From contig NGZR01000001.1 of the NCBI GenBank assembly GCA_002197995.1, positions 12,729,501 to 12,793,500 on the forward strand: a stretch of 64,000 nucleotides of DNA, read 5' to 3'. The stretch comes from Gaeumannomyces sp. JS-464 (taxonomy: Eukaryota > Ascomycota > Sordariomycetes > Magnaporthales > Magnaporthaceae). Positions 6,919 to 26,465 of the stretch are shown here, piece after piece. The position numbers and the translations under genes were made by a program. The notes below the pieces were generated by a model, which did not search any database, was not told the origin of the DNA, and was given only the letters and a program-made list of their open reading frames with translations. How positions within the stretch are numbered: position 1 is the stretch's first letter; each line of letters opens with the position of its first letter.

Positions 6919-8377
6919 CTATTGGGCGAAGGGTGCTGTCCGGGTCCACGCTTCGTTATCGCCAGCCCTCCGGAATTCGACGCCCTCGCCGAAGTACCCA
7001 GCAGCATGCCATGCCTTCATCATGGCAGTGTCGAAGGGGCCCTGTTTGGCGGCGCCATCCCTGCCATCAATCCAGCGATATTCCCACTGCTCCCCGCCAG
7101 GCTCTTCGCCTGGTTCTGGTCCCTCAGCGGTCGCCCCTGCCGCCGATGTCTCCGTGGGACTGCCCGGTCGCGCAGGCTCGATCCACTCCTCGCCTGTCTC
7201 TTTCTTATATTCCCTGATGAGCATCTCCCTCTCCGTTGTCGTAGATCTCCGGGAACTCCCTTCCCAGCAGGCGGTCCGCGGCCTCGGTGACCTGGTTTAT
7301 CGCCGTCTTGACTCTCTGGTGCGCGGGGTCTTCTGGCGCCGCGTCCTTGTCGACGTCCTTGTGTCGTCGGCGGCATTCTGCTTCTTCAGTTCCACTTTGG
7401 TACCTTTTTCGCCTTAGGTTTGAACTTGGCCTGGCTCTTGCCCAGCCTGGCAAGCGCCTCCAGCGGCGTCTCTCCCTTTTCCAGGTTGAGGATAAGCGAA
7501 CTTATGAGATCTGACGTGATAATGCTGTCCTCCTCCTTGCGTTGGCGGCGCAGCTCCGCCTCACGCTTTTCGTGCGCCTCGGCGGCCTTTTTCATGTCCT
7601 TCTTCTTGATACCCTCGAGCCATCGGTCGTGCACGGCGTCGGCGTCGGCGGCCTTGCGCACAAAGTTGCCGGCTTCGTCAAACGCTCCCTCCTCCTGCTC
7701 CGACCTCATGTTGAAGGCGTCAACCTTGGGGGCATGCCGCTTGAGGCCGCCGGCGCCGACCTCCTCGTCCACATCCTCCTCCTGGATCGCGAGCTCCTCG
7801 TCCTCGTCGTCGCTGCTCTCCGTCGTCCAGCCGGACCTGGCCGCCGCTCTTACTCGTGTGCTCCTCACCCTCTATATCGCGGGCATCCAAGAAGCGGACC
7901 TCCTTGTTCTTGCGCCCACTTGTGTTGGTCCTGTCTTGGGCTGGAGGCTTGTCATCGGAATTTCCACCACCGAACATGTCGTCGTCATCATCGTCATCGG
8001 GCGCGGGCGCTGCGCCCCTCAGCTTCGAATCGTAGTTGTCCAGCTGGTCTATTATGTTGACCGGTTTGCCCCGCCCTGGCCGATTTGGCCTGGCGCGGGC
8101 GTGAAAGGTTTCGTTGTCCGAGTCGCTGTCGTAGCCGTCAATGTTTACGGCGCCTCGCTTGGTGGCGGTGCCGGCCCCCTTGCCGATAACGTCGGCGTCG
8201 AGTATGTCGTCTTCCTCACGCTCGTCCGCAACCAGCGCGGACGGGTTTCGCACATCGAACTTGACTTTTTTGGACGAGCCCTCCTCCCCGTCCGAGCCCG
8301 CCCTTTCGCCATGATGCGACCGGGCGAAAGCTTCGCCAGCACGCTTGGGACGCGCTGCAGAGAAATCTTGAAGACAT
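6919..8377 (-). CDS. LIN1: U5 snRNP GYF-domain protein (LIN1/CD2BP2-like)
   Basis: Homologue of human CD2BP2 and yeast Lin1/Snu40, a U5 snRNP assembly factor that binds Prp6 and is shed on tri-snRNP formation. The N-terminal part has RPKRAGEAFARSHHGE, then KKVKFDVRNPSALVADERE, several acidic stretches and the typical EEGAFDEAGNFVRK motif near 7690. A helical middle segment follows, and the C-terminal GYF domain (DNA about 6930-7090) has WEYRWIDG, QGPFDTAMM and GYFGEGVEFRR. The gene is broken by about five isolated one-base shifts: near 8365 just after the likely start ATG (8375-8377), near 7815, near 7397, near 7365, and near 7227. Every segment between breaks still matches the family, so sequencing indels are more likely than a pseudogene. 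It shares a 560-base divergent promoter with UFD1. Confidence 0.85.
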
Positions 8378-11421: not shown

Positions 11422-12058
11422 ATGCCTCCCGCCACAGCATGGACTGGGGATGCGGAGAGGGATCTTATTTTGGCCCTCTGGCGTGCGAGCTCGAGCGGGC
11501 CGATCAAACCAGACTGGACCAAAGTCGCTACCATCATGAACACCCGGGGTCACGGCTTCACCTCGGACGCAATGAAGTCAGTCGCCCTAGCTGCAGATGG
11601 CGTGACGTTATTTCCACCGAGAATCCAGCTAACTCGGCCTACCCGGTGCGCACCCCCATACTGACTCATTGAGCTGTCAGGTGCCGATGGTTCCAGAAGA
11701 TCTCCAAAGAGTTCAAGGCCTTGGAGGAGTCGGCCACTGCCACCACGCCCAGTCCTGGCGTCAGAGAAAGCGCGTTGATGACATCGACGCCACCCCCTCA
11801 ACGCCGACAAGGTCTAGCGCTGCCAGTCTTCAGACGCCTGTCAGTAAGAAGGCAAAGGCTTCCAAGTCTGGTACCATCAAGGTAGAGCCTATCGGCGGGC
11901 GGCTCTGATCACGGCCAGGAGGATGAGCTCTTGCCGGAGCCGAGCCCGACTGCTTGCCTCGAAGGTCCAACCCCAGTCGTTCGGCCACAAAGACCGAGTC
12001 GTACAAGGAGTCATCCGGAGAGGACAGCTTCAATGACGACAGCGACGTGGTCGTCTAG
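11422..12058 (+). CDS. Myb/SANT-like DNA-binding protein
   Basis: Small nuclear-type protein with one N-terminal Myb/SANT-like helix-turn-helix domain, probably a transcription or chromatin factor. Exon 1 (11422-11576, 155 nt) encodes WTGDAERDLILALW (helix 1), PDWTKVATIMNTRG (helix 2) and HGFTSDAMK. It ends in a phase-2 GTCAGT donor. The intron at 11577-11680 has a CTGAC branch and CAG acceptor, and exon 2 begins CRWFQKISKEFKALEE, the rest of helix 3. The tail is Ser/Thr/Pro-rich with basic KKAKASK, a possible SUMO site (IKVEP) and an acidic C-terminus ending SFNDDSDVVV. The tail needs about three frame changes (near 11755, 11900 and 11935), probably sequencing indels. Exon length and splice phase match three of the alternative exons at 20.6-22.4 kb. 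Confidence 0.7.
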
Positions 12059-13230
12059 ATCGCTTGGTGCCAGTGCTAGAACTGTCCCGACATCTGGTCA
12101 ACGGCTCCGGCGTCCGGTTTGAGAGCTACCTGTCTGTGAGTGGCGCGCAACCTCCCAGCCTCCGAGCGCACCACCTCGCGCGACCTTCCAAGGAGAAGCA
12201 GGCATGCAAGACACACACATATCCTGACCTGCTTCGTGAAAAAACAGCCGCCCAACGAACAAGATTTCTATATTTCAGGCGTCGTATTCCTGTTTCGCAC
12301 ATGACCGATGTTATCATCCACCATTCGTCTCGTCTCGTCATCAACCATTTCTGGGCCTCATCACCCGGGCTTCGGTTCTCGGAAGGACGCTCACGCTCGA
12401 AAGCCATAGTCGGTCCCGACCGGCACAGCTTCGCTCCGTGTTCACCTGCCTAGATGGGTGGCCACCTAGATGGACCAACAACGAACACGGTCTTCACTTT
12501 GTACTCCTTTTCTCAGCTATCATGGACACAGGACGGTAATATGCGATTGCTTGTATTTTTAGTTCACCTGTGGGCTAAGGCTCTAGCCACCCGCTCTCTG
12601 CAGACATGCCAGATGGACGTGCTTAGTGTTATTCGCGATGTATTCATCACCTGTTTTGTTGGGTGACTATTTTTCTCTGGGAGTGTCGCGGGTCTGGAGG
12701 GGGACGTGACAAACTATGGCCAGATGCTGCTATTAAAAGAATACATTGAGAACTGACAGCTCTATGTTTCACTTATCGAATATCACCGTGATACCAGGAA
12801 GGCAGATGTGGAATGAACACGGAGGAGAGTCTTTAGGTCAAGAGCATGCCCAATCCGTTGATCCTTGGGTCTTCACCTGGCTGGCGCTCATAGGCATGTC
12901 CTTTGTCTTCCAGGTGGTAGTTGTCCACCTATCTAGATACAGAGCTGAAGGATAAAGTTCACTTGGACCTGCTCCAAGTAAGAAATGAGAAAAGGGGGCT
13001 GGCAAAAAAGGACCGTATTGGCTTTGCCTTCCGCGTAGATGCCATCGCTGGAAGCCGACCGCCGACAATGGACCGGCCTCCAAAGAATAGAGAGGACGGG
13101 TTCCTGGTTCCAAACAAGTCGCAAAAAAGGAATGAGTGCTGACTGAATCAGAGATGGGTCATCAAGATATCTTCCCCATCAGGAAAATGTGAACGCATTC
13201 GCAAGCAGGCAGAGAAGAGGCCGCGAGCCG
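12059..13230. other. Intergenic region
   Basis: About 1.2 kb between the 3' ends of two Myb-like genes that point toward each other. Short ORFs at 12064-12453 and 12746-13142 have no recognisable domain and no splice logic. I see no repeat or RNA gene. Confidence 0.5.
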
Positions 13231-13891
13231 CTAGTGTGCGAACTGCGACGCGAACCCGGAATCGTCCACACCATTGAACATGGACGCCGAGAACATTCCG
13301 TCGAGATCCTCCTCATCGTCGTCCTCGTCCTTGATGTGGTCAATGGCGGCCTCGGAGTGGTCCGCGGCAGCGGCCTTGGCCAGCTGGGCCACCTGCTCCG
13401 GGTCTTCGCCGTCGCCGCCAGCCTCGGCGTCGTCGGTGCCGTCGTCGGCGCTGTCGGCAGCAGCCTTGGCCTTGTCGCCACCGGCCTTAGACTTTCGCGG
13501 GGTGGCCGCCGGCTTGCGGACGCGCGAGCGCGGGGTCTTGGAGCCGCTCGCCTGGCTCGAGTCCTTGGCCTTTTTCGGGGTTGGGGCGGCCGCGAAGCCG
13601 AGCTTCTGCTTGATTTGGCGGAAGCGGGCCTTTTATGGGTTGCGGTCAGCAGGTAGCAAAGGGTGATATAGGAACAGAGCGCAACACGGCAGGACTCACA
13701 TTGGCAGTCGGGCCGTTCTTGAAGTTGGCCTCTCGCGCGACCGCATCCCAGTCAACCTCGGGCTTGTTCTTGAGATGCTTGAGGATGTACAAGAAGAAGT
13801 ACGCCTCTTGGGGAGTCGGGTCTATCTTCTTGGAGCCTGGCGTCTCGGGCGCCTCACGCGCTCCTCCCTTCTTGGGCGTCTCGCCGGCCAT
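13231..13891 (-). CDS. Myb/SANT-like DNA-binding protein
   Basis: Exon 1 (13700-13891) encodes an N-terminal Lys/Pro-rich leader followed by DPTPQEAYFFLYILKHLKNK (helix 1) and DWDAVAREANFKNGPTAN (helix 2). The intron at 13630-13699 has a GTGAGT donor, CTGAC branch and AAAAG end, and is phase 0. Exon 2 begins ARFRQIKQKLGF, the third helix. The tail has basic segments (KTPRSRVRKP, TPRKSK), suited to DNA contact, then Ala- and Asp/Glu-rich sequence ending DSGFASQFAH at the TAG at 13231. The domain order resembles other fungal Myb-like genes in this cluster but the subfamily differs (phase-0 intron). The frame is intact over about 200 residues. The function is inferred only from the fold. Confidence 0.75.
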
Positions 13892-15414
13892 CGTGGTGAT
13901 TGAGGCCTAAAGCTGATATGTCAGTTCCGAGTCTTTCTTTCGTCAAAGCTGTGGATGTGGAAGATCTAAATTACCAGTGCGTTGTGGTGATTCTATGGTG
14001 GGTGGGATGGATGGTATCAAGAACCAAGCTGACCCTCGATTTTGAGGCGGTTGTATGCGTGAGGTGGATGGGTTGGCGTATATGTTAATAGACCGGAGTC
14101 CTCTGTGGGTAATTATGGCTACGAGTTTGAGTTGCGCGAAAGTCGTTAGTTGATAAGCTGGTAGGTAGGTAGTCTGTCCAAATTTTGCAGACAACTCGAA
14201 GGCTTGGGTGACAAGTTGGGAGAGACATCGAACATGAGGGAGAGCAGGGTAGGTGGGTACTAAGAAGGGGGAGAGACAATGGAGCCCAGCGTAGAAAGTT
14301 AGGAAGGTGCTTTGGTGACCCTCCGCCACCTAGAATCTACCTAGAATTCCAGAACCGGCATGGCAATCTTGTTTCTGGGGGGTGTACTCTGGTCGGGGTT
14401 AAAGAGACTGGTTGAGGGTCGACAAATTAGGCTACAGGTGAATCTCCCAGAGCGAGCCGAGAAGCAGGCAGCGCAGCCGTGCGCACGGTGCATCTGTTCT
14501 TTGCCAACAGGCCGCAACCTAGGGCACACTAATTAATACCGCGTTCCCCTTTTGTGTACAAGCATACTTCGATATCGAGAAGGAGCTGGGGTATTCCCTG
14601 AATACGGCAAAAAGAAGCAGGAAGATGAATAGGAACAGGAAAAGGAGAACAAAGAGACAAAGGCAAAGGCGCCGATATTACATCAATGTGTCTAATGGTT
14701 AAGCACAGCACGGCGTGGCGGCACGGCGAGGGTAAGGAACGAACCCGAAGCCGATCGGCCACAGAGCGATACTTACTTCTGTTCGGTCGAGGACGGTATT
14801 GACCAGAAAGCACAGCGGCGTTACTTCTTCCAGAGCCAGAGAGAGCAACAAGAAAGTACCAGAGAGAACTCTAGGACGATCTGAGGAGAGGGCCAAAGAG
14901 AGGGCCCGAAAAAACAGAGCCAAATAAAATGAGGGAAAATAGGCCACCTCAGCCCCGCAGGAATGGAAGCCTTGCAGGCGCCAAATCAGCAAAGAGGTCC
15001 TGATTTTATTATATTGCATTTTGGCTTTCACATTGTATATGCTGGCCAACGATTCGTGGTGTTTGATAAATACCCCAAGGTCAAGGTAGCGTATCTCATC
15101 ATTCGACTAGGTACCAACGTAGCGCCCGCATAATCGTACAGATCTATCCAGGAAATGAGGTTTTAATCTAAACCAGAACAAGCCGGGAAAGTATGGAAAT
15201 TCGTGAAACGCAGAAGGGGGATAACGTTGCGGGCGGTTGAAACCGACCCACCGAGAAAACCGAAGACGAAGATGGGAAACATGAGAGGAATAGAAAGGAC
15301 CAACGGCGAGGCAGGAGAGCGACTCGGATAGACACCTTGCGCAGCAAGGCGGATTAGATTAGAGGTCGCCAGAGAAGCCTTTGGGCAGAACGCCCGCCCT
15401 GTGCTTCCTCCGCT
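13892..15414. other. Intergenic region between two minus-strand Myb-like genes
   Basis: About 1.5 kb with no supported gene. It should contain the promoter of the gene starting at 13891 and the 3' flank of the gene ending at 15415. Minus-strand ORFs at 14341-15049 have hydrophobic or low-complexity composition without a domain. The GGTAGGTAGGTAG run near 14160 is an example of a recurrent intergenic motif in this window. Confidence 0.5.
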
Positions 15415-16343
15415 TCAGACAGCATGGTATTGGCTGTCCCAGGTCTCCTGCTTGACGCTGGCATTGTTGTGATCAGGATCCATGACGGCTGAAGGGACGC
15501 ACAGCCCCTGGGACTGCTCGTGGTTGTGATAGGGGCGGTGTTGGTCCTGTGGATTAGGATGCTCAGAGAAGTTCACCGAATAGCTTTCCAACTCGTAGGT
15601 CATCCCAAAGGTGGCGTATGTCGGGCTGTGGTGGTGCCATGCTCCATGGTCGTTGCTATTGCCACAATGTCCCGGCGCCGGGAAGTCGAACGGCTCCGGG
15701 TGCAAGACATCGCTGACTGGGCTGCCGGCATATTGAGGAGCCATGATGACATCGGTGTCGCTGCAAGGGGTCATGAGTCGGTTCTGGAACTGGACGCGGC
15801 TGTCGGGGAATGTGCCCGTTGTTGATGGCGGCGAACAAGCGGTGACTTGGCTCTCCAGCACGAGAGGTCTGATTTCGTGCTTGACCTTGACAGAGGCAGA
15901 GCGGCTGGGGATCGAGTCCGCAAGTCCCTCGTCTTGGGTCTCAGGGGTATCCTCGAGACTGTCTTCCCTCTTGGCCTTGAGCGCCTTGTCAGGCTTTGCG
16001 TCCTTGTCCTTCTTGCTCTTGGTGACACGTGAGCTGTTGCCAGCCGTACGGTTCCGCCGCTGTGGCTCAATACCGAGCATCGAGGAGCGGAAGCGGCTGT
16101 ATCGCATCCTCGCAGCGTGGCCGTTTGTGATTGGCTGAAGAAGTACAGGGTCCGAAGCGACCTTGTTCCAGTCGATCTAGAGCGGTTGGATGTCACGTCA
16201 GAAATGGTCTCACCATGGACTCGCGAAGAGTAGCGGTAGTGGTTGGCAGGAGGGCTGTTCCAATCACTTACATCCTTGAGACACTTCTGTCGTAGGATTG
16301 CGAACAAGAACCTCGCCATGGCGTTGTCGGCGTTGGCGGTCAT
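15415..16343 (-). CDS. Myb/SANT-like DNA-binding protein
   Basis: 277-aa protein with an N-terminal Myb/SANT-like domain. Exon 1 (16272-16343) encodes MTANADNAMARFLFAILRQK, which is helix 1. The intron at 16177-16271 (GTAAGT donor, TAG acceptor, phase 0) leads to IDWNKVASDPVLLQPITNG (helix 2) and AARMRYSRFRSSMLGIEP (helix 3 and exit), a pattern common in fungal Myb-like proteins. Next comes a very basic stretch (SRVTKSKKDKDAKPDKALK). A long Ser/Pro/His-rich region follows, with possible SUMO sites (VKHE, VKQE) and a His/Asn-rich C-terminus. The frame is intact. It is divergently oriented from the related gene at 18313 across a 2-kb spacer. A regulatory nuclear role is inferred; targets are unknown. 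Confidence 0.8.
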
Positions 16344-18312
16344 GGCTGGTATTACTGTGGTCTATGGCCGAGCGGCCTGTATGTTTCGCAGGAAAGTAGC
16401 CCGTGTGGGTCGTTTACGTGCGAAATGGTAGAGATGGTTGTCGCATAGGTAATAGGGGACAAGAACAGGAAACTGAGAGAAGAAGATGGATGGGCTGATC
16501 CAGCCTGAGGCAACGGAGAAGAAGGGTGGCGGCGGGAGGAGAGATTATAAAGAGCGAGAAAGTTACGGAAGGAGGCAGACAGGCAGATAAGACCGGTGCT
16601 ACGGCTGGAAGGATGGGGGGACGCCGGAAAGATATGTACTCTCGGTTCTTGCTTTCCCCTGAGGCACACAGTGCTGAAGAACAGCTGTGACTAGGCCAAG
16701 GACAGGCTCTTGCACTAAGAGACAAGGCAATGGAGGGACAGGAGCGCGGGCCCGGAACCGCCAGATGGGGTAGTATGTATGTCTGCGACGAGGGCAGATC
16801 TGGTCCAGAGGTGGAGTAATGACCAACAGCAGGAGCCCAACCTGCATGCGCTGGGCGCACACTCTAAATAAAGCTGTTTGCCTCGTGCGCGCAGAAGGCC
16901 CGGCGAGATTCCAATTCACAGCCAGGGCAGGCGGGCGAGCATGTGGGCGGATACAGGCAAGAGAGTGAGGGATAGATGGGGGAAAGCAGCCCACTCGAGC
17001 CGTCTTCGAGCGTCATTGTATACTCGAGAGGGGCCAACTTTGGTTGTCCAGGCAGCCTGCCCAAGGTGTGTGGGTGGCGACGGCGTGCGACGCTTGTGCC
17101 TGGCAGCAAACCGCCGTCGCACCCCTTCGAGGGCAGAGGCAGCGAGTGTGGGCAAAAGCGAAAGGACCGATGTGACGGATGTGACGGATGGAGGCGGGGT
17201 GTGGAAGTGGGCGACGCGCAGCTCGCGTAAAGTGGTCCGCGACAACCCCCTGTCGCCACTCACACACACCCCTTTCCCTTTCCGTGTCTAGTCGGTGACA
17301 CCCCTCCAAGTCTGGCCGGTCATCAACAGCCCAACAGCTGAGGGCTGCTATCCCAGACCCCCACACGCATTCCACCTACCTACTTTCTTGGGTGGTCCGG
17401 CGCAAGGGATGCGCAGGGTGTGACAGACATCGGGTGCAGGCAAACAAATGAGCAGCAGGCCGAGACGGGGACGTGAACAGAGCAGAGCGAGAAGAGATTG
17501 AATGCAGGTGAAGGCGAGCAAACGGCGCCAATGGACCCGCCCAGCTGCTCCTCTCCAATGAAAGACAGCCCCTTGGCAAGGCTTGCGAGGGATGATTGCG
17601 CAGAGCCGGTCGCTTGAAACCAGTGACTCATTCGAGTCATCGTCGATGCATCGTGCACAAGGGGGCCTGTCCGAAATGAGGAGGTTGGGCGGCGGTCTGG
17701 CGCGCTTTGGCTGGGGGGAGTGAAAGCAAAGTGAAAAAAAGGGGGTTGGCGGGTCTGGACGCGACACTGTGCGCCGTCAGCTGCGCCGAAAATGCTGGCG
17801 CAACGCGATATTGGCACCAAAGCACATGATCTGGTGCAGGGGTGTTAATGGATGGACATATGGGTGCCTGAAGAGCTGCCTGAATGCCTTGGCTTGCTAC
17901 CCTGGTCGGGACTGACTTTCAATGGATGGACCCCATGGCGCCACCAGATTCGTGTCTCGTGTCACTTGTCCGTTGCGGTGTCTGCCTTGAATTTTGGGCC
18001 ACATCGGTGTGTAGCAGGGCATATTGCCAGACGGCTGGTGATGGGTTGATGGATTCACGCGGCTGCTTTGGTTGGAGCCTGCGCGGAGGTATGTCGACGC
18101 TGCTCAGTCAGCGGTAGCACGTGATGCGCCCTCAGATGCACGGGCCTCGTCGCAGGCCCGCCCGTTGAACCCCTCTCTCGCGGCTGCGGCATCTGGCGCC
18201 GTCCTCAGCTGCTCCATCGATCCTCTACCAAATCCCTTACCAATTCCCAGCACATGGTGGACGACTCAATCGGCCGTCTCCATCGCCGCCCTCGGTCGGA
18301 CCGCACGGCAAG
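16344..18312. promoter_or_regulatory. 2-kb spacer between divergent Myb-like genes
   Basis: Both flanking genes start at its edges, so it holds two promoters and long leaders. ORFs on both strands (for example 16414-16994 and 17348-17825) have Pro/Arg/Ser-rich, random-looking composition. Purine tracts alternate with pyrimidine tracts. I see no specific site that I can name. Confidence 0.45.
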
Positions 18313-19593
18313 ATGAACAAGAACTGGAACGATAGAGCCGACAAGGACCTGTTCTTCACCATTCTGTCGGTCAAGAACATCGGCGTCATCAGCGGCTCCG
18401 AATGGACCACAATTGGAAACCACATGCGCAGTCTGGGCTACGGCTTCACCAACGAGGGATGTCGGTAAGTCCTGTTACCGCGCCTGGTATCTCGCCCTTC
18501 CCTGCTGCAGAGCCCTGGGCCTTTTACCCACCCGCCCGCCGCCTGTCCACGCACGCACCCACGCACTGCTTTGCACAATAGCCTTTCTTCCTCTGCATCC
18601 GCCTCCGCGGTGCGACAGCTGCCTGCCACAGCGAGCACCGCATTGCCGGCCGCGATTCGCCCTTGGTTTCCCTGTTCACCTCTCCTGTTGACTGCCACTC
18701 TTGATGAATCTATCCCGTGTCTGCGCCCCAACTCGATGCAACATGTGATAATTGGATTTGCGGACCGTGAGTGCGGCTTGCAATCGGTGTTTATTTGATA
18801 TGTATTGGCTTTCTGCACAAGCTCCCATCGTCGACCAAGACGGCACTTCTGCAGTGAAACTCACCAAATCCCGTCCGCAAAATGCAGCGACAAAGAAAGA
18901 ACACATAAAAAAAGGAGACAGAAAATCTCACAGCATCGCTCAATTGGCACCATGCTCGGCCCCAACCCTTGTTCCTCAACACTGCTGACGCCACAGCCTA
19001 TCCTGCCACATAGTCAACACTTTCAGGGGCTGCGGCGAGCCCAGAACAAGGCGGATACAAACGGACTAGGTGACAACGGCCCTCGCAGGGCCGACCCAAC
19101 CCTGAACCCCATCACACGCCGTCCAGGCCCGGGCCGAGGGAGACCCCGGAAGCTGCCAGGCCAGCAGTCCGAGGACCCCGAACAGGCTCTCGCAGCCGTT
19201 CAGCCGGAACCGGAAATCCCCCTGGCTCCTGTGGTGGCAGGTCCACCACCCCGGCCCCGCCTCCGGCACCAATGATGGCGCCCTTGCACCATGATGTCCT
19301 GGATTTCGATCCCACAGGCGACCCAACCGACGAGCACGAAGTTAAGAGGCCCCGGCTGGACGATGCCAACGACCATTCGCTGGAGGACGAGGCTGTGGTG
19401 CTCAGCGCATTGGCTGCCGCCAACAACCAATCCACGGTTGATCACTACGCACAAGAGTGAGTCGCCCCTGGCCGCCAGCGCGGTTTGCTTTCCCCCCCCC
19501 CCCCCCCCCCCCCGCTCTCTACCCCCGCTCCAGGCTGGCTAGCTTCCCTAACAAACAGACACTTGCACCAGATTCGGCTATGGAGAGGCTTGA
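18313..19593 (+). CDS. Myb/SANT-like protein with AT-hook
   Basis: Exon 1 (18313-18464) encodes WNDRADKDLFFTILS (helix 1), SEWTTIGNHMRSLGYGFT (helix 2) and NEGCR, ending in a phase-2 GTAAGT donor. The acceptor CACATAG at 19011-19013 restores the frame as RQHFQGLRRAQNK, the second half of helix 3, which defines the family. The intron (18465-19013) is 549 nt, long for this genome. An AT-hook (GRGRPRKLPG) near 19135 follows, then a Pro-rich linker with one apparent single-base frame break near 19235, then LHHDVLDFDPTGDP and an acidic tail. The third exon starts at 19572 after a GTGAGT donor at 19457 and encodes FGYGEA and the stop at 19593. The last intron contains a run of 22 C (19492-19513). 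Likely a nuclear DNA-binding regulator, targets unknown. Confidence 0.78.
19492..19513 (+). repeat. C22 homopolymer inside an intron
   Basis: Twenty-two consecutive C residues lie in the last intron of the gene at 18313-19593, just upstream of its CTCT-rich acceptor region. The tract is likely length-variable and may be miscounted in the assembly. Confidence 0.9.
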
Positions 19594-20593
19594 TGATTAT
19601 GGGATGTCGCTACTAATAGCCGCCAACACCGCCCGATCCGCATATACCTGGGCATCTCAAGCGACGATACCCTGAGATATAGTGTGGCCGTCGGTGGTAT
19701 CGTATGGCACCACCGTAACGTTCAGCGACATGGGGATCGTAGTGACGACCACATTCTAGAGGCTTGAACCCTACTTGCTTCACACCCCATTTTTGGCCCG
19801 GGCTGGGAAGGGTGGACATATTTATACGTCCCAGTTCTTGGTTTCTTCCGCTGGGAGCTTGCGAGGAGTAAAGGTTCACAGGCTTATACACCGCAAGACA
19901 TTGCACCATTGACTGGCTCATGTTGTTTATTAGTGTTACTTGGTCGTTTGGTTAGTTTTAAGACTAGGCATATGCCTACCTCTATTGTTCTGCTGATGTT
20001 ATCACGAACGCGACACCGGAAGCGAACCTCGCAAGTGAAGGGTGCTTCGATTACGCAGCGAATATCTTCATGTCATAATCCTTACCTCCTCTTCCCTAGG
20101 TATAGGGCTGCTAAGGGCGATGTAGGATACCCAGGCCCCTGCAAGAGGAGACATATCGCTTGCGCAATTTGAGCAACGACAAGTTTCTAAGGGTTCCGCC
20201 AAGTGGCTGTTATTGGCTCCTATTTCCGCCTTTTACCAAAATCGGGCAAAAACACTGAAGGAATTGATGGGAAATAGGAGAGAAGCAGGTGAAAAGCGGT
20301 GGAAGGCAGATCGACGGTCAGGGCTGTGTGCTTAATGTATTACCTTGGAACCTGTCTGCTATTTGGTATTTCTGACCTCACTTTCTCTCTGCCTCGCCTC
20401 CAGCCGGACCCTCATCTCGAACCAGCACAACCAAACCTTCCATCCACAATCTACAGCGATCAACTATCAGCTACCACCGCTACCAAGTTCACCACCCTTT
20501 TTGCAGCCACCAATACCATCCTGGTTCTCTTCTCACTTCGAAACCCCAAAGATCTCCCCATTGCCGCCGCGAAAAATCACATTGCTCCTCGAG
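19594..20593. other. Spacer upstream of the alternative-exon locus
   Basis: About 1 kb between the AT-hook Myb gene and the first exon of the array. I looked for another copy of the Myb half-domain on both strands and saw none. The last 250 bases are C/T/A-rich and G-poor, like the leaders that precede each exon of the array. Confidence 0.5.
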
Positions 20594-20748
20594 ATGCCTA
20601 CCAAATGGGACGACAAGGCGCTGGCGTGCCTCTGCACGTCCATCTTCAGCATCCTGAGCACCGATAGCCTGACACAGGAGCACAAAGACAACGTTGTGTC
20701 CCTGATGAAAGAGAACGGCTTTCCAGACATCACCTGGAACGGAATCCG
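20594..20748 (+). CDS. Alternative first exon A, Myb-like half domain
   Basis: 155-nt exon from ATG to a strong GTAAGT donor. It encodes MPTKWDDKALACLCTSIFSI (helix 1), TQEHKDNVVSLMKENGF (helix 2) and ITWNGIR, stopping in phase 2 in the middle of helix 3. The sequence immediately downstream contains no exon for the rest of the helix. The first acceptor that continues the domain is at 22571 (QHLQKLKRK), which would be joined in frame over an 1822-nt intron. It is preceded by a G-poor pyrimidine/AC-rich leader. It is clearly homologous to, but strongly diverged from, exons B to E, with no stop codons. It may be a functional alternative start or a retained partial duplicate. Confidence 0.65.
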
Positions 20749-21030
20749 GTAAGTGCCATTAACGTCGGCGAACTTGGGAAAGGCGCCTTGGCACTTGCTG
20801 TTCAAGGCTCCCTAAGCCCGAATGGAAGCCCTTCTATCTCCTTCCGTCTCGTCTGCTCCCGTTGCATCTCGAACCACTTTCCTCTCAAGTCACTTCCCGC
20901 TCCCACCTCGCGCAACCCAGCATCATTATCCACCATCCTTCTCCATCAGCCTCTCGAGCAACTCGCAACCCATAAATCATATCAAATCACGTCAATATCG
21001 TCAGCAAACGCCTCGCGCAATACCTCAATT

Positions 21031-21167
21031 ATGCCGCGATTCGAAGACATCAAGGGCGACCTCATGGAGGCGTTCTTCCACCTGAACCCGCCTACCAAGG
21101 ACCAGCAGGCCCAGATTGTCGAGTTCCTGAGGAGCAGGGGCCATGACATGACGTGGGATGCCATACG
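21031..21167 (+). CDS. Alternative first exon B, Myb-like half domain
   Basis: 137-nt exon, the shortest of the array, from ATG to a GTAGGC donor in phase 2. It encodes MPRFEDIKGDLMEAFFHL (helix 1), TKDQQAQIVEFLRSRGHD (helix 2) and MTWDAIR. The usual helix-1 Trp is replaced by Phe. The final IR matches exon A exactly. Joining to 22571 would give an in-frame product with a 1403-nt intron. No private second exon is visible before exon C. Upstream sequence contains AT-rich elements such as CATAAATCATATC near 20970 that could serve as a core promoter, which is inference. Confidence 0.62.
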
Positions 21168-21381
21168 GTAGGCGCTCCTGCCTTTTCAGTCTTTTCTTCT
21201 CCCCTTCTTGTCCCCCGTCTATGTGATTCCACATCTTCCTCGTTCCGACGAGAGTCAGAAACCACCAACATCAAAGCAGTGCTTCCCGATCCTCCATCTC
21301 TGCCTTAACGCGCTGTATATCGCATATATTTCAACTGCCCATCTTCTCCATATTTCCCTTCTCTCTTCTATCAACTACAAG

Positions 21382-21545
21382 ATGCCTACGCCCGGAACTT
21401 TCCAACAGGACTGGGGCGCCCCCGGACTTCACGAGGACATGCTACGGGCCCTCATGGCTCGCGGTGTACTCACACCGGACAATGTGAACGCGCTCCTGCA
21501 GGAAATGCACGGATACGGATACAAGTTCACTAAGCGCGCTCTGGA
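21382..21545 (+). CDS. Alternative first exon C, Myb-like half domain
   Basis: 164-nt exon beginning MPTPGTFQQDWGAPGLHEDM, then LRALMARG, NVNALLQEMHGYGYKF and TKRAL. The open frame runs into TAA at 21547-21549, but that TAA overlaps a GTAATT sequence that falls exactly at the aligned phase-2 donor position of the other exons. If used, the splice to 22571 is in frame with a 1025-nt intron. GTAATT is weaker than the donors of A, D and E. TATATCGCATATAT near 21320 is a possible TATA-type element 60 bases upstream of the ATG. Confidence 0.58.
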
Positions 21546-21802
21546 GTAATTACGAAGCCCAATCTCTTTGCCCACACAGCTCTGGCCTCACCTCGAACTC
21601 ACCTGCCTCTTACCTTCGCTTCACCATTCCATTCTCTGCACCTCAGCCCAGCCAACCCCACACCCACAATATTTAAAACTCTGCCCGAGCCTTTGGATGC
21701 TTCCTCCTCTTCCCGTCCCATCACCCATCCGAACACGCCAACACAAACGACCAGCCACCATTCTTGCTGCCTCATATCAAGACACAACTCCGATCCGCCA
21801 CG

Positions 21803-21957
21803 ATGTCAGCCTCCGGCCGTACCACATGGGATGACAAGGCCCATACGGTCTTGCTGCAAGCCATCATAGAGCTTGCTCCTCCAACTGCGGACCAGTGGAG
21901 CCGCATCATGGAGGCGGTCCAAGCCCAGGGCTACAACTACACACAGAGTGCGGCTCT
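21803..21957 (+). CDS. Alternative first exon D, Myb-like half domain
   Basis: 155-nt exon encoding TTWDDKAHTVLLQAIIEL (helix 1), TADQWSRIMEAVQAQGYN (helix 2) and YTQSAAL, with a GTATGC donor in phase 2. It is closest to exon E (DQW in helix 2, G-Y-aromatic turn). Splicing to 22571 would be in frame with a 613-nt intron. TATTTAAA at 21669 lies about 135 bases before the ATG and could be a TATA-type element. No stop codon interrupts the exon. Confidence 0.65.
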
Positions 21958-22272
21958 GTATGCATTCCCATTTCTATATTCGATTCTGTTCTTGTCTGAT
22001 ATCTTTGTTTTCCTATCCCATCCCGCGGCTTTCGGCTCTTTTACTCTGCCTACCTCTGCCTACCTCAGCTTCCATCAGCTCACCCACAAAACCTCACCTC
22101 AAAAAACCCACCCACCACATTCTTTCCCGTTTTCTCCCAACCTTAGACCAACACACCAGAAACTCATTTCTTCTCAGCCATCCCACCAACATAAAACATT
22201 GCCATCCAGGCTCAGTCAGCCGCACTCTCTCCTTACACATAAGTTATCCTATTCCCTTCATCATATCACAAG

Positions 22273-22984
22273 ATGTCCGGCCGTGTCCTTCAGAATTGGA
22301 ACGAGCAGGCCGACCGCGACCTTCTCGTCGCCATATGGGAGACTTGCAGCCCAAGCCGAGACCAGTGGCAGGACGTCATGTCCCGCGTTCAGGCAATGGG
22401 CTACCAATACACTGTCAAGGCCGCAACGTACTGTCGCCCAGCACCATTTTCCCCAACCTCCTCCGTGTTTCCTCCATCACAAACAAGCAGGCCACACATG
22501 AACACACATTACCTCAAAACCGACCTAGCACTTTGATAATATTTGCATGTTGAACTAACAATATATACAGCCAGCATCTGCAGAAGCTCAAGCGCAAGGA
22601 TCCCGGCGGCGGCGCCTCGTCCGGCGGTGATGGCGCCGGCCCCAAGACCCCTGGCAAGCGGGGTGGACGCGGCGGAGGCGCCAGCGGCTCTGCCAAGCGC
22701 AAGGCTAGGGCACCTGCCCCGGTCGAGGATGACGATGATCTCGCCCTCGACGGGAATCTCACTACTCCGTCAAAGAAGGCGAAGAAGGAGCCCAAACGTG
22801 AGAAGAAAGAAACTAAAGCTGAATCTGACGATCTGCTCCAGTTGGGTGTCAAGAACGAGTAAGTCCCAATTTTCTTTTGTCTATTATGTATCACCCTACC
22901 CACTGGAATATATGCGTCTTTGCTAACACATGCTGCCATGTCTTTTATAGGATCGATGACCTCGACGCTGCCGGAGTCATCTAG
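22273..22984 (+). CDS. Myb-like protein: first exon E plus common exons
   Basis: This is the complete gene of the array. Exon E (22273-22427, 155 nt) encodes NWNEQADRDLLVAIWETC (helix 1), RDQWQDVMSRVQAMGYQ (helix 2) and YTVKAAT, with a GTACTG donor in phase 2. The 143-nt intron ends at ATATACAG (22570). Common exon 22571-22858 starts QHLQKLKRKDPGGG, completing helix 3. A Gly/Lys/Arg-rich AT-hook-like segment (GKRGGRGGG) follows, then a basic region ending before KAESDDLLQLGVKNE. A second intron at 22859-22950 (GTAAGT, CTAAC branch, TAG) leads to IDDLDAAGVI and the stop at 22984. The frame is intact throughout. The predicted protein is about 158 aa, probably a nuclear DNA-binding factor. The same common exons are the only visible acceptors for exons A to D. 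Confidence 0.8.
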
Positions 22985-24127: not shown

Positions 24128-25693
24128 TCACTTCCTCCTGTGTTTGCCACCAATTTTATCTTTGCCATTCATCCAGAGCCGAAGCACCTCGGGGATCTCG
24201 ACTGTCATGGAGGCCTCGTCCCAGCCGTTCTCCAGGATGGCCGCAATGACGCGGGGAACGGCAAGGGCGGTGCCATTGAGTGTCCAGGGGAAGGTCATCT
24301 TGCCGTCGAAGCGGACGCGGGTGGACAGGCGGCGGGTCTGGTAGTCGGTGCAGATGCTGGCCGAGGTCACCTCACCCCACCCGTCGTTCTTCTGCCGCCG
24401 CGAAGGGAAGAAGGCCTCGATGTCGATCTTGCGCGCCGCCGACGCGCCCAGGTCCGCGGTGGGCATCTCGAGGACACGGCAGCGCAGGCCGAGCGAGCCG
24501 AGGATCTCGGTCTGGATGTCGAGCATCTCCTCGAAGACCTCCTCGGCCGCAGCCTCGGACGGGGCGGACCACGCGAACATCTCAACCTTGGTGAACTCGT
24601 GAACGCGGTAGAGGCCCTTGGTGTCGGCTCCCCTGGCGCCAGCCTCGGCGCGGTAGCAGCGCGAGGCCGCGACGCGGCGCGCCGGAAGCTCCGACTCCTC
24701 CAGCTGGGAGTCAGCCTTCATGGCGGCCAGGGGGATCTCGGCGGTGCCGGTGAGTGAGAGCTCGGGCTTGCCGCGGGCGGCATCGGCGGCGGAGCGGGCC
24801 AGAGTGTATACCTGTGTCTCGCCGTTCTGGTCGCGCGGCTGGAAGCCGCAGGCGTCGGCAATGTGCGAGTAGACGACGGATGGCGGGCTGACCTGGGCCC
24901 AGCCATGGCGCGTGGCGACGGCGAGTGCATACTGCACCAGCGCCTGCTCGAGCTCGGCGCCCTCGTTCAACAGGTAATACCAACCCCAACCAGACGAGGA
25001 GGCGGCGCCGGCAAAGTCCAGGAGGCCCAGCTCCGAGCCGATATGGACATGAGAGCGCCACACGCGGTCCGTCTCGGACGGTCTGCTGCTCTCCTGCTCG
25101 GGGTCGTCGTTGATGTAGCTGAGCACCAGCGGTTCCTCGCCGCGCGGAGTGCTGGCGCTGGTCAGGTTGGGTAGGGCCGCGGCGAGGCGGGTCATCTCCT
25201 GGGTGAGGCTCTCTTCGGCGTCCTCGATGGTTGAAAGCTGCTCCTTGAGCTGGCGGGCCTCCTCGATGAGCCTCTCGCGAGGCTCGGCGCTGAAACCCTC
25301 GGCCTCGGCCTCGGCCCGCGTCGACGGCGGGTTGGCCAGCTCACGGCGCAGCAGGTTAGAGCGTTCACGCAGGACACGGCCCTCGCGCTGTTTGGCCTGC
25401 CATTGTTCGTGGAGCAAGTTTATGCGTGCGGGATTGCCACTCTGGGGTTTGTAGTTACGCTCAATGCAGTTTTGCTCATAGAGCGTTGGATTCTGGCGGA
25501 TGTGCTTGATATCGATCACGGTCTTGGGTGCTGAGGTGGGACGGATGGGCGCCCCTGTGTCGGCGTCTGTGCCTGTTTCCGACTGCTGTCTAACTACCGA
25601 GCCAGTATGAAACGGCCGTCGGATAAAAGGGCTGTGCCTCGACGCCCTGCCGAGATGCGGCAGGCGAGGCAGGGTCCCGGGCAATCGCCTCAT
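24128..25693 (-). CDS. Seryl-tRNA synthetase, mitochondrial type
   Basis: 521-aa class II aminoacyl-tRNA synthetase that charges tRNA-Ser with serine. The N-terminus is rich in Arg, Ser and Leu without acidic residues (MRRLPGTLPRLPHLGRASRH), as in a mitochondrial presequence, so the organellar enzyme is likely (yeast DIA4-like). IDIKHIRQNPTLYEQNC opens the tRNA-binding coiled-coil arm, which continues to about residue 185. Motif 2 lies around CYRAEAGARGADTKGLYRVH followed by EFTKVEMF. Motif 3 is NGTALAVPRVIAAILE. TGTAEIPL forms part of the serine pocket. It is a single uninterrupted exon with an intact frame, divergent from DBP6 across about 770 bases. A cytosolic enzyme is less likely because of the presequence and the diverged body. 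Confidence 0.92.
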   Translation of the reverse strand: MRRLPGTLPRLPHLGRASRHSPFIRRPFHTGSVVRQQSETGTDADTGAPIRPTSAPKTVIDIKHIRQNPTLYEQNCIERNYKPQSGNPARINLLHEQWQAKQREGRVLRERSNLLRRELANPPSTRAEAEAEGFSAEPRERLIEEARQLKEQLSTIEDAEESLTQEMTRLAAALPNLTSASTPRGEEPLVLSYINDDPEQESSRPSETDRVWRSHVHIGSELGLLDFAGAASSSGWGWYYLLNEGAELEQALVQYALAVATRHGWAQVSPPSVVYSHIADACGFQPRDQNGETQVYTLARSAADAARGKPELSLTGTAEIPLAAMKADSQLEESELPARRVAASRCYRAEAGARGADTKGLYRVHEFTKVEMFAWSAPSEAAAEEVFEEMLDIQTEILGSLGLRCRVLEMPTADLGASAARKIDIEAFFPSRRQKNDGWGEVTSASICTDYQTRRLSTRVRFDGKMTFPWTLNGTALAVPRVIAAILENGWDEASMTVEIPEVLRLWMNGKDKIGGKHRRK

Positions 25694-26465
25694 CCCGCTA
25701 CGCGATGTGTGTGAAGAGCAGGAAGGTATGTATGGAGATGAGAAGCCAGCTACCTAAGGGTAGCTATGGGTTAATTGGCATGGGATTTGTGCTAAGCATA
25801 CATGGCGGATGTCGACTGAAGCTTGCGCTGCGTCGTCGTGTGGGTGCATCTGCTGATTTGCCGCAGGATTATGATTTTCGAGGGGCGGCACCGGGCGGAT
25901 GCTAATTGGCACCCCCGGTCTCGATTGTTGCACCCCCACAACCTCGGTTTGTTTGGGATACGGCCAACTAGGTAGGTACCTACCTTTAACAGTGGCAGAA
26001 AAGAAAAGCCGATATATAAAAGCAGTATATCGGGAGGGATAGAGAGAAGAGAAAATACTTGCAAAAAGGCAAAAGAAATACAGGAAAGATGAAAGGATAT
26101 AGAAAAGACTTAGGTGGGCAACAGGGGGCCCAACCGTGAACCGTTGGGAGTTCCAATTAGGCACTCCCGACGACAGCCGTCGGCCGTCCGGGACCCACTC
26201 CATCGCTGTATCGGGTGCCGCGATAAGTCAATCCTGGCAGGCGGTGAGTGTGGCAGTATAGAGCTCCCCGCCAAAAAATTAGACGATGCAGCAATTGGCC
26301 CCATGCATTTTATCCCGTCGCGTCGCAAGTCGAGCTGCATTGTCAATTGTCGCGTGCCGGGCGAGGACCCTATATCGGCCATATTCGAGCCAACAATCGA
26401 TTTCCGCCGCGTAGGAAACAAGCACCAAGATCACGCAGGAACCGCCGCAGAGCGTAGCTCGCACG
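25694..26465. promoter_or_regulatory. Divergent promoter region seryl-tRNA synthetase/DBP6
   Basis: A 772-base spacer with the two genes starting at its edges. It contains the palindromic motif CTAGGTAGGTACCTACC at 25968-25984, one of many copies of a recurrent intergenic sequence in this window. No gene is seen. Confidence 0.5.

Follow-up and report, generated by a model that had tools for sequence, protein, structure and literature searches.

How are five tandem coding exons to be read when each begins with ATG and appears to break off inside the same helix, and a single downstream exon would supply the remainder? The question is raised by positions 20594 to 22984 of a 64,000-nt stretch of DNA from Gaeumannomyces sp. 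JS-464 (contig NGZR01000001.1, positions 12,729,501 to 12,793,500), called here the window. The contig is 15.65 Mb long, and the genome comprises 53 Mb in 34 contigs. Its ribosomal spacer looks like one from the ascomycete class Sordariomycetes. The initial annotation had proposed an array of alternative first exons, comparable to the UGT1A and protocadherin loci, that exchange half of a Myb-like DNA-binding domain.

Structure and coding signal of the array

Five coding first exons of homologous type, A to E, lie in tandem on the plus strand within 1.8 kb. Exon A (20594-20748, 155 nt, donor GTAAGT) is followed by exon B (21031-21167, 137 nt, donor GTAGGC), which is without the N-terminal Trp stretch, exon C (21382-21545, 164 nt, donor GTAATT), exon D (21803-21957, 155 nt, weak donor GTATGC) and exon E (22273-22427, 155 nt, weak donor GTACTG). 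All five donors are in phase 2. The coordinates, ATG starts, open frames and phase-2 GT donors given initially are exact, as is the statement that three of the exons have exactly 155 nt. Unspliced, A, B and C meet TAA or TAG inside their own donors, because any phase-2 GTAA or GTAG donor contains such a stop.

Downstream of E, a branch-point-like ACTAAC (22554-22559) and the acceptor CAG form a pair (22554-22570, plus strand) that is the only one of its kind between 20749 and 22570. It precedes a candidate common exon (22571-22858, plus strand) encoding the rest of the putative helix 3 (QHLQKLKRK) and a basic tail. An intron of 92 nt separates this exon from the last one (22951-22984, plus strand), which ends in a stop codon. 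Both downstream exons join in frame and coincide with coding islands. When each of A to E was joined by script to 22571-22858 and 22951-22984, five proteins with an identical tail were obtained, in agreement with the claim that all five donors reach 22571 without a frame change. The further claim of a common aligned end codon is correct for four of the five exons (A, B, D and E), since C, if spliced, adds one residue at the junction (GA/C, Asp) ahead of QHLQ.

The training set for codon use consisted of 31 long open frames, 16,291 codons in all, from the surrounding 154 kb, with 11-23 kb excluded. The in-frame codon scores of A to E are 0.42, 0.63, 0.27, 0.31 and 0.39, and the training mean is 0.39. 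For the stretches outside the exons, namely the leader of A, the E intron and each of the four gaps, the best-frame score is -0.20 or lower. The G content of these stretches is 9-16%, as against 25-30% in the exons. We also scanned the locus for the best-scoring segments of codon preference, the exon coordinates not being supplied. The scan returned islands at 20582-20749, 21031-21162, 21406-21546, 21797-21958 and 22270-22428, all terminating 1-5 nt from the donors of A to E, as well as an island at 22569-22859 on the tail exon and one on the last exon (score 7.7). The end of the signal is informative at the donors of D and E, as their frames stay open past the donor. As a positive control, the identical scan picked up the second-exon islands of two paralogous genes at 18.3 and 11.4 kb, described below. 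The five exons are thus more than chance open frames: each carries coding signal, and the gaps carry none.

Additional plus-strand islands were three overlapping ones in three frames at 20255-20328 (scores 7.8-14.3), one at 20762-20809 (7.4), one out of frame within B at 21129-21140 (7.2), and two out of frame within the tail exon (24.8 and 7.1); shuffled gap sequence gives 0.085 islands per 1505 nt. Islands on the minus strand (scores up to 37.8) were unusable, the background being the G-poor plus strand, and several of them cross stop codons.

The leaders were said to be G-poor, and some to contain TATA-like elements. The low G content is seen in the gaps and the leader of A; TATA-like words are few in the leaders, and there is none before A. 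Each leader contains one upstream ATG, five in total against about 10.6 expected. A separate promoter may precede each exon, as the G-poor leaders with a single upstream ATG suggest. No similarity between leaders exceeded z 2.5 in any of 21 pairs, and neither a common element nor duplicated promoters were seen among them. A scan of the locus for bacterial promoters and terminators gave nothing useful.

Kinship, domain assignment and retention

Two plus-strand paralogues lie upstream of the array. One has its first exon at 18313-18464 and its own second exon from about 19014, the other a first exon at 11422-11576 and its own second exon from 11681. In both, the place and phase of the intron are the same as in the array, so the split of helix 3 predates the array.

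Leave-one-out profiles of the seven exons (A to E and the two paralogues, three of the rows carrying second-exon letters) were compared with the 4301 open frames of the 154 kb. Exons E, D, B and A and both paralogue exons rank directly behind the six training members, with E-values of 4.7e-13, 6.8e-13, 9.2e-7 and 0.013 for the array exons and 1e-6 (11.4 kb) and 4.7e-6 (18.3 kb) for the paralogues. Homology by profile is thus supported for A, B, D and E. Exon C was not recovered by this procedure (rank 20 of 4301, E-value 12); its membership is based on position, phase, ATG, length, pattern, and the G and T common to all seven exons.

Among the 21 pairs of these exons, DNA identity is 39-53% and protein identity 17-45%. 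Nei-Gojobori dS is at least 1.1 (two pairs are saturated) and dN is 0.57-1.17, the saturation barring a verdict from dN/dS. The distance of A and C to E is no smaller than that of the separate paralogues, which implies either great age of the array or fast evolution of A and C. Genome-wide searches with single isoforms, in which only the best candidates were scored, returned this cluster and fragments of exon D only. Relatives were not matched in plasmid sequences or found in viral contigs.

The assignment of A to E to the Myb/SANT-like domains is putative, and we make it with modest confidence. None of the array exons reaches the Pfam cut-offs of PF13837 and PF22980, the best E-values being 0.088-0.16 (PF13837). 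Two minus-strand genes of the neighbourhood (13231-13891 and 15415-16343) do match Myb_DNA-bind_8 (PF22980), and profile comparison with them gives an E-value of 0.0056 at a probability of only 6.6. The array exons resemble these neighbours in domain size and in the W..V pattern, but differ from them in staying below the family cut-off and in the presence of five alternative versions. Models of single exons contain two helices in E (mean pLDDT 76.9) and in C (66.1). A fold search with the exon E model gave three matches, none at an E-value of 0.001 in PDB, and a sequence search of solved structures gave unrelated proteins at best (E-value 0.23). The description as Myb-like is supported by the profile likeness to the neighbouring genes, at a level below every Pfam cut-off.

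Exons A to E are near synonymous saturation, yet all retain their ATG, frame and donor. In a neutral simulation without selection or indels, where a copy had to keep its ATG, an open frame and GT, retention was 1.6-3.0% at 0.5 changes per site and 0.15-0.5% at 1.0. As neutral copies seldom keep these features at such divergence, long functionless retention of A to D is unlikely. The earlier argument that exons so diverged and still free of stops point to selection agrees with these figures.

Splice sites and rival explanations

The sequence CTRAY is the fungal branch consensus, and its use led to 18 inferred introns, whereas two control motifs led to 9 and 4. In the 1822 nt from the donor of A to the tail exon, there is only one NCTRAY motif followed by AG within about 45 nt, and it stands before 22571. 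Between 20749 and 22553, CTRAY occurs once versus 6.77 times in 1000 dinucleotide shuffles (P 0.007), the deficit being weaker in the gaps alone (1 versus 4.26, P 0.063). The stricter CTRAC is absent from the same interval (0 versus 3.70, P 0.025; gaps alone 0 versus 2.28, P 0.091). When overlapping windows of equal size were taken across the 154 kb, 5.4% of the 3044 contained at most one CTRAY; among low-G windows away from the array, likewise overlapping, the figure was 0 of 40.

Seventy-one AGs at 20779-22570 have an open entry, and 22571 alone yields the helix-3 sequence, as had been asserted when a single exon was held to supply the missing half. A private helix-3 exon above chance was not found: the top score among the other 70 AGs is 8, and 2.5 such are expected by chance. 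By sequence, the first exons have no private acceptor or continuation, poor in-phase AGs being present before B and C.

The lengths of the introns count against the array model. Joining to 22571 implies introns of 143 nt for E, 613 nt for D, 1025 nt for C, 1403 nt for B and 1822 nt for A, and those of A to D are long beside the inferred introns of this region (55-125 nt, searched only up to 140). It also counts against the model that splicing by intron definition would favour the nearest donor, that of E. The donor scores, from a matrix of the 18 inferred introns, are 2.96 for A, 0.29 for B, 0.72 for C, -2.06 for D and -0.70 for E; the donor of A is the top scorer among the 61 GTs of the interval, and those of D and E are at the 6th and 11th percentile of the inferred introns. 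A gradient in which the more distant exons have the stronger donors is suggestive only, given the small matrix.

Exons A, B and C might be short stand-alone genes translated without splicing, their products of 52, 46 and 55 aa being truncated domains and perhaps inhibitors of the full protein. The DNA compels no splicing of these three, stops are present inside their donors, and the coding signal ends there. However, the 18.3-kb paralogue also reads CGG-TAA at its donor and yet has its own second exon, the GTAAGT of A outranks every other GT of the interval, and D lacks such a stop and would still need to be spliced; we consider stand-alone genes unlikely. If splicing took place at E only, the E gene would have a long leader in which A to D are upstream reading frames that act on translation. 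The E donor would suit this: it is nearest to the acceptor, and its intron of 143 nt has the size usual in fungi, the other donors being far away. Nevertheless, a domain pattern, phase-2 donors and codon preference, all kept in A to D, are needless for such regulation, and the unspliced D frame overruns the ATG of E, so that we rate upstream frames below stand-alone genes.

Decay is harder still to accept. The high divergence of C and A, and the failure of the profile to detect C, are what would be expected if A to D were remnants of tandem gene copies of which E alone is in use, but the low neutral retention simulated above and the codon preference kept in A to D make this very improbable. 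Least probable of all, and hardly credible to us, are a private second exon for each first exon or a chaining of the exons into a multi-repeat protein. In-phase open AGs do exist before B (three) and C (one), and the AG before 21005 opens a basic stretch, KRLAQYLNY, that is helix-like and by eye the best continuation for A. However, this stretch scores 2, which 16% of the 14,970 control AGs also attain, and it has poor codon use and is without a branch-like motif. The candidate chained entries were rejected: all stand at AAG or GAG, none occurs before D or E, none has a branch-like motif, and the gaps that they would open are non-coding. The chance-level scores of the 70 other AGs also speak against private exons.

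Judged by the DNA, alternative first exons are a better fit than the rivals tested, and we think it probable that the locus is one gene with five of them. In such a gene, each of A to E would have its own start region and would encode a small Myb/SANT-like domain from the N-terminus through the first two helices into the early part of helix 3. A transcript begun at one first exon would splice its own donor to 22571, the first exons downstream of it leaving within the intron. Having a donor but no good acceptor, a first exon would be skipped when it lies downstream of another and used when it is itself the place where transcription begins. With five exons of this type ahead of a single acceptor, five mutually exclusive proteins would result, which have the closing half of helix 3 and the basic tail in common, and with five start regions the choice of promoter would set the contact half of the domain. 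Distant donors would have to beat nearer ones, in keeping with a donor that is strong in A and weak in D and E.

A UGT1A/protocadherin-type locus is the most likely reading. Of the initial proposal to that effect, the in-frame donors, the coding signal, the single branch-point and acceptor pair, the absence of private second exons and the retention of the exons agree with the sequence; the four long junctions and DNA binding are predictions. In its complete form, the model comprises first exons that are old and under selection, five in number and each with a promoter, which exchange the first two helices and half of the third of a Myb-like domain on one common half-helix and tail, with exclusion achieved only by absent acceptors and by the clearing of branch-point motifs from a giant first intron. 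We lean towards this full version with somewhat more than even confidence.

Known systems and the genomic neighbourhood

In the vertebrate UGT1A locus, tandem first exons with their own start regions precede one common set of exons, and exclusion is due to the lack of acceptors at the first exons. The array shares with it the tandem first exons before common exons. It differs in being fungal, in the placing of the junction inside one helix of a small domain, and in that its promoters and junctions are predictions. In the clustered protocadherins, homologous variable first exons are spliced onto common 3' exons. Each variable exon accounts for entire extracellular domains in that case, whereas an exon of the array would encode half of a putative DNA-binding domain. 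We know of no choice mechanism of the CTCF type for the array.

Alternative first exons are frequent in fungi as a class of events (PMC6176087, PMC5034255). In the human fungal pathogens of one survey, intron retention ranks first and alternative first and last exons come next, and less than 0.2% of events are mutually exclusive exons (PMC6176087). For Schizophyllum commune, 171 genes with mutually exclusive exons were called, and these exons lie for the most part in untranslated regions (PMC5034255). In the accessible parts of these two surveys, homologous coding first exons are nowhere described as an array, and the available portion of the open-licence literature yielded no fungal case of coding first exons arrayed in tandem. 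In Trichoderma virens, a microexon switch in Xlr2 gives regulator isoforms that concern the DNA-binding domain (PMC11121469). As far as the available text of that paper goes, one microexon is included or left out, and tandem first exons, unlike in the array, are absent.

If the proposed model is true, clusters of first exons arose in fungi too, the exons of this one reaching their common exon across as much as 1.8 kb, and a combinatorial regulator locus of the UGT1A and protocadherin kind exists outside animals. The split of helix 3 would let a single scaffold present five contact halves, and the locus would offer a compact system for studying how the spliceosome passes nearer, weaker donors. 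Gene finders may well miss exons like A to D, and similar loci could thus hide elsewhere.

The paralogues and the two minus-strand Myb_DNA-bind_8 genes belong to a cluster of small genes of Myb-like type at 11422-19600. The tails of the paralogues (11681-12060 and 19014-19457) contain coding islands in more than one frame, which may point to decay, errors in the sequence or additional introns; at about 19491-19513 there is a run of C. The cluster also includes further PF22980 matches some 56 kb ahead of the first position of the window (G000 C1:12672345-12673796). On the other side, the array is adjoined by a minus-strand open frame of 541 codons (24128-25753), by eye a seryl-tRNA synthetase, that can serve as a synteny anchor.

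The fragments of exon D are situated on another contig (L037:4682-4873; G000 C12:8746682-8746873, minus strand), where the rest of the gene is absent. Two adjoining fragments, of 99 bp at 98% identity and 93 bp at 86% identity, suggest a recent and partly doubled insertion of exon DNA. A 445-bp stretch with 77% identity is common to L037:8561-9000 and L029 at about 7784-8227, and a frame within it resembles, by eye, a helix-turn-helix transposase.
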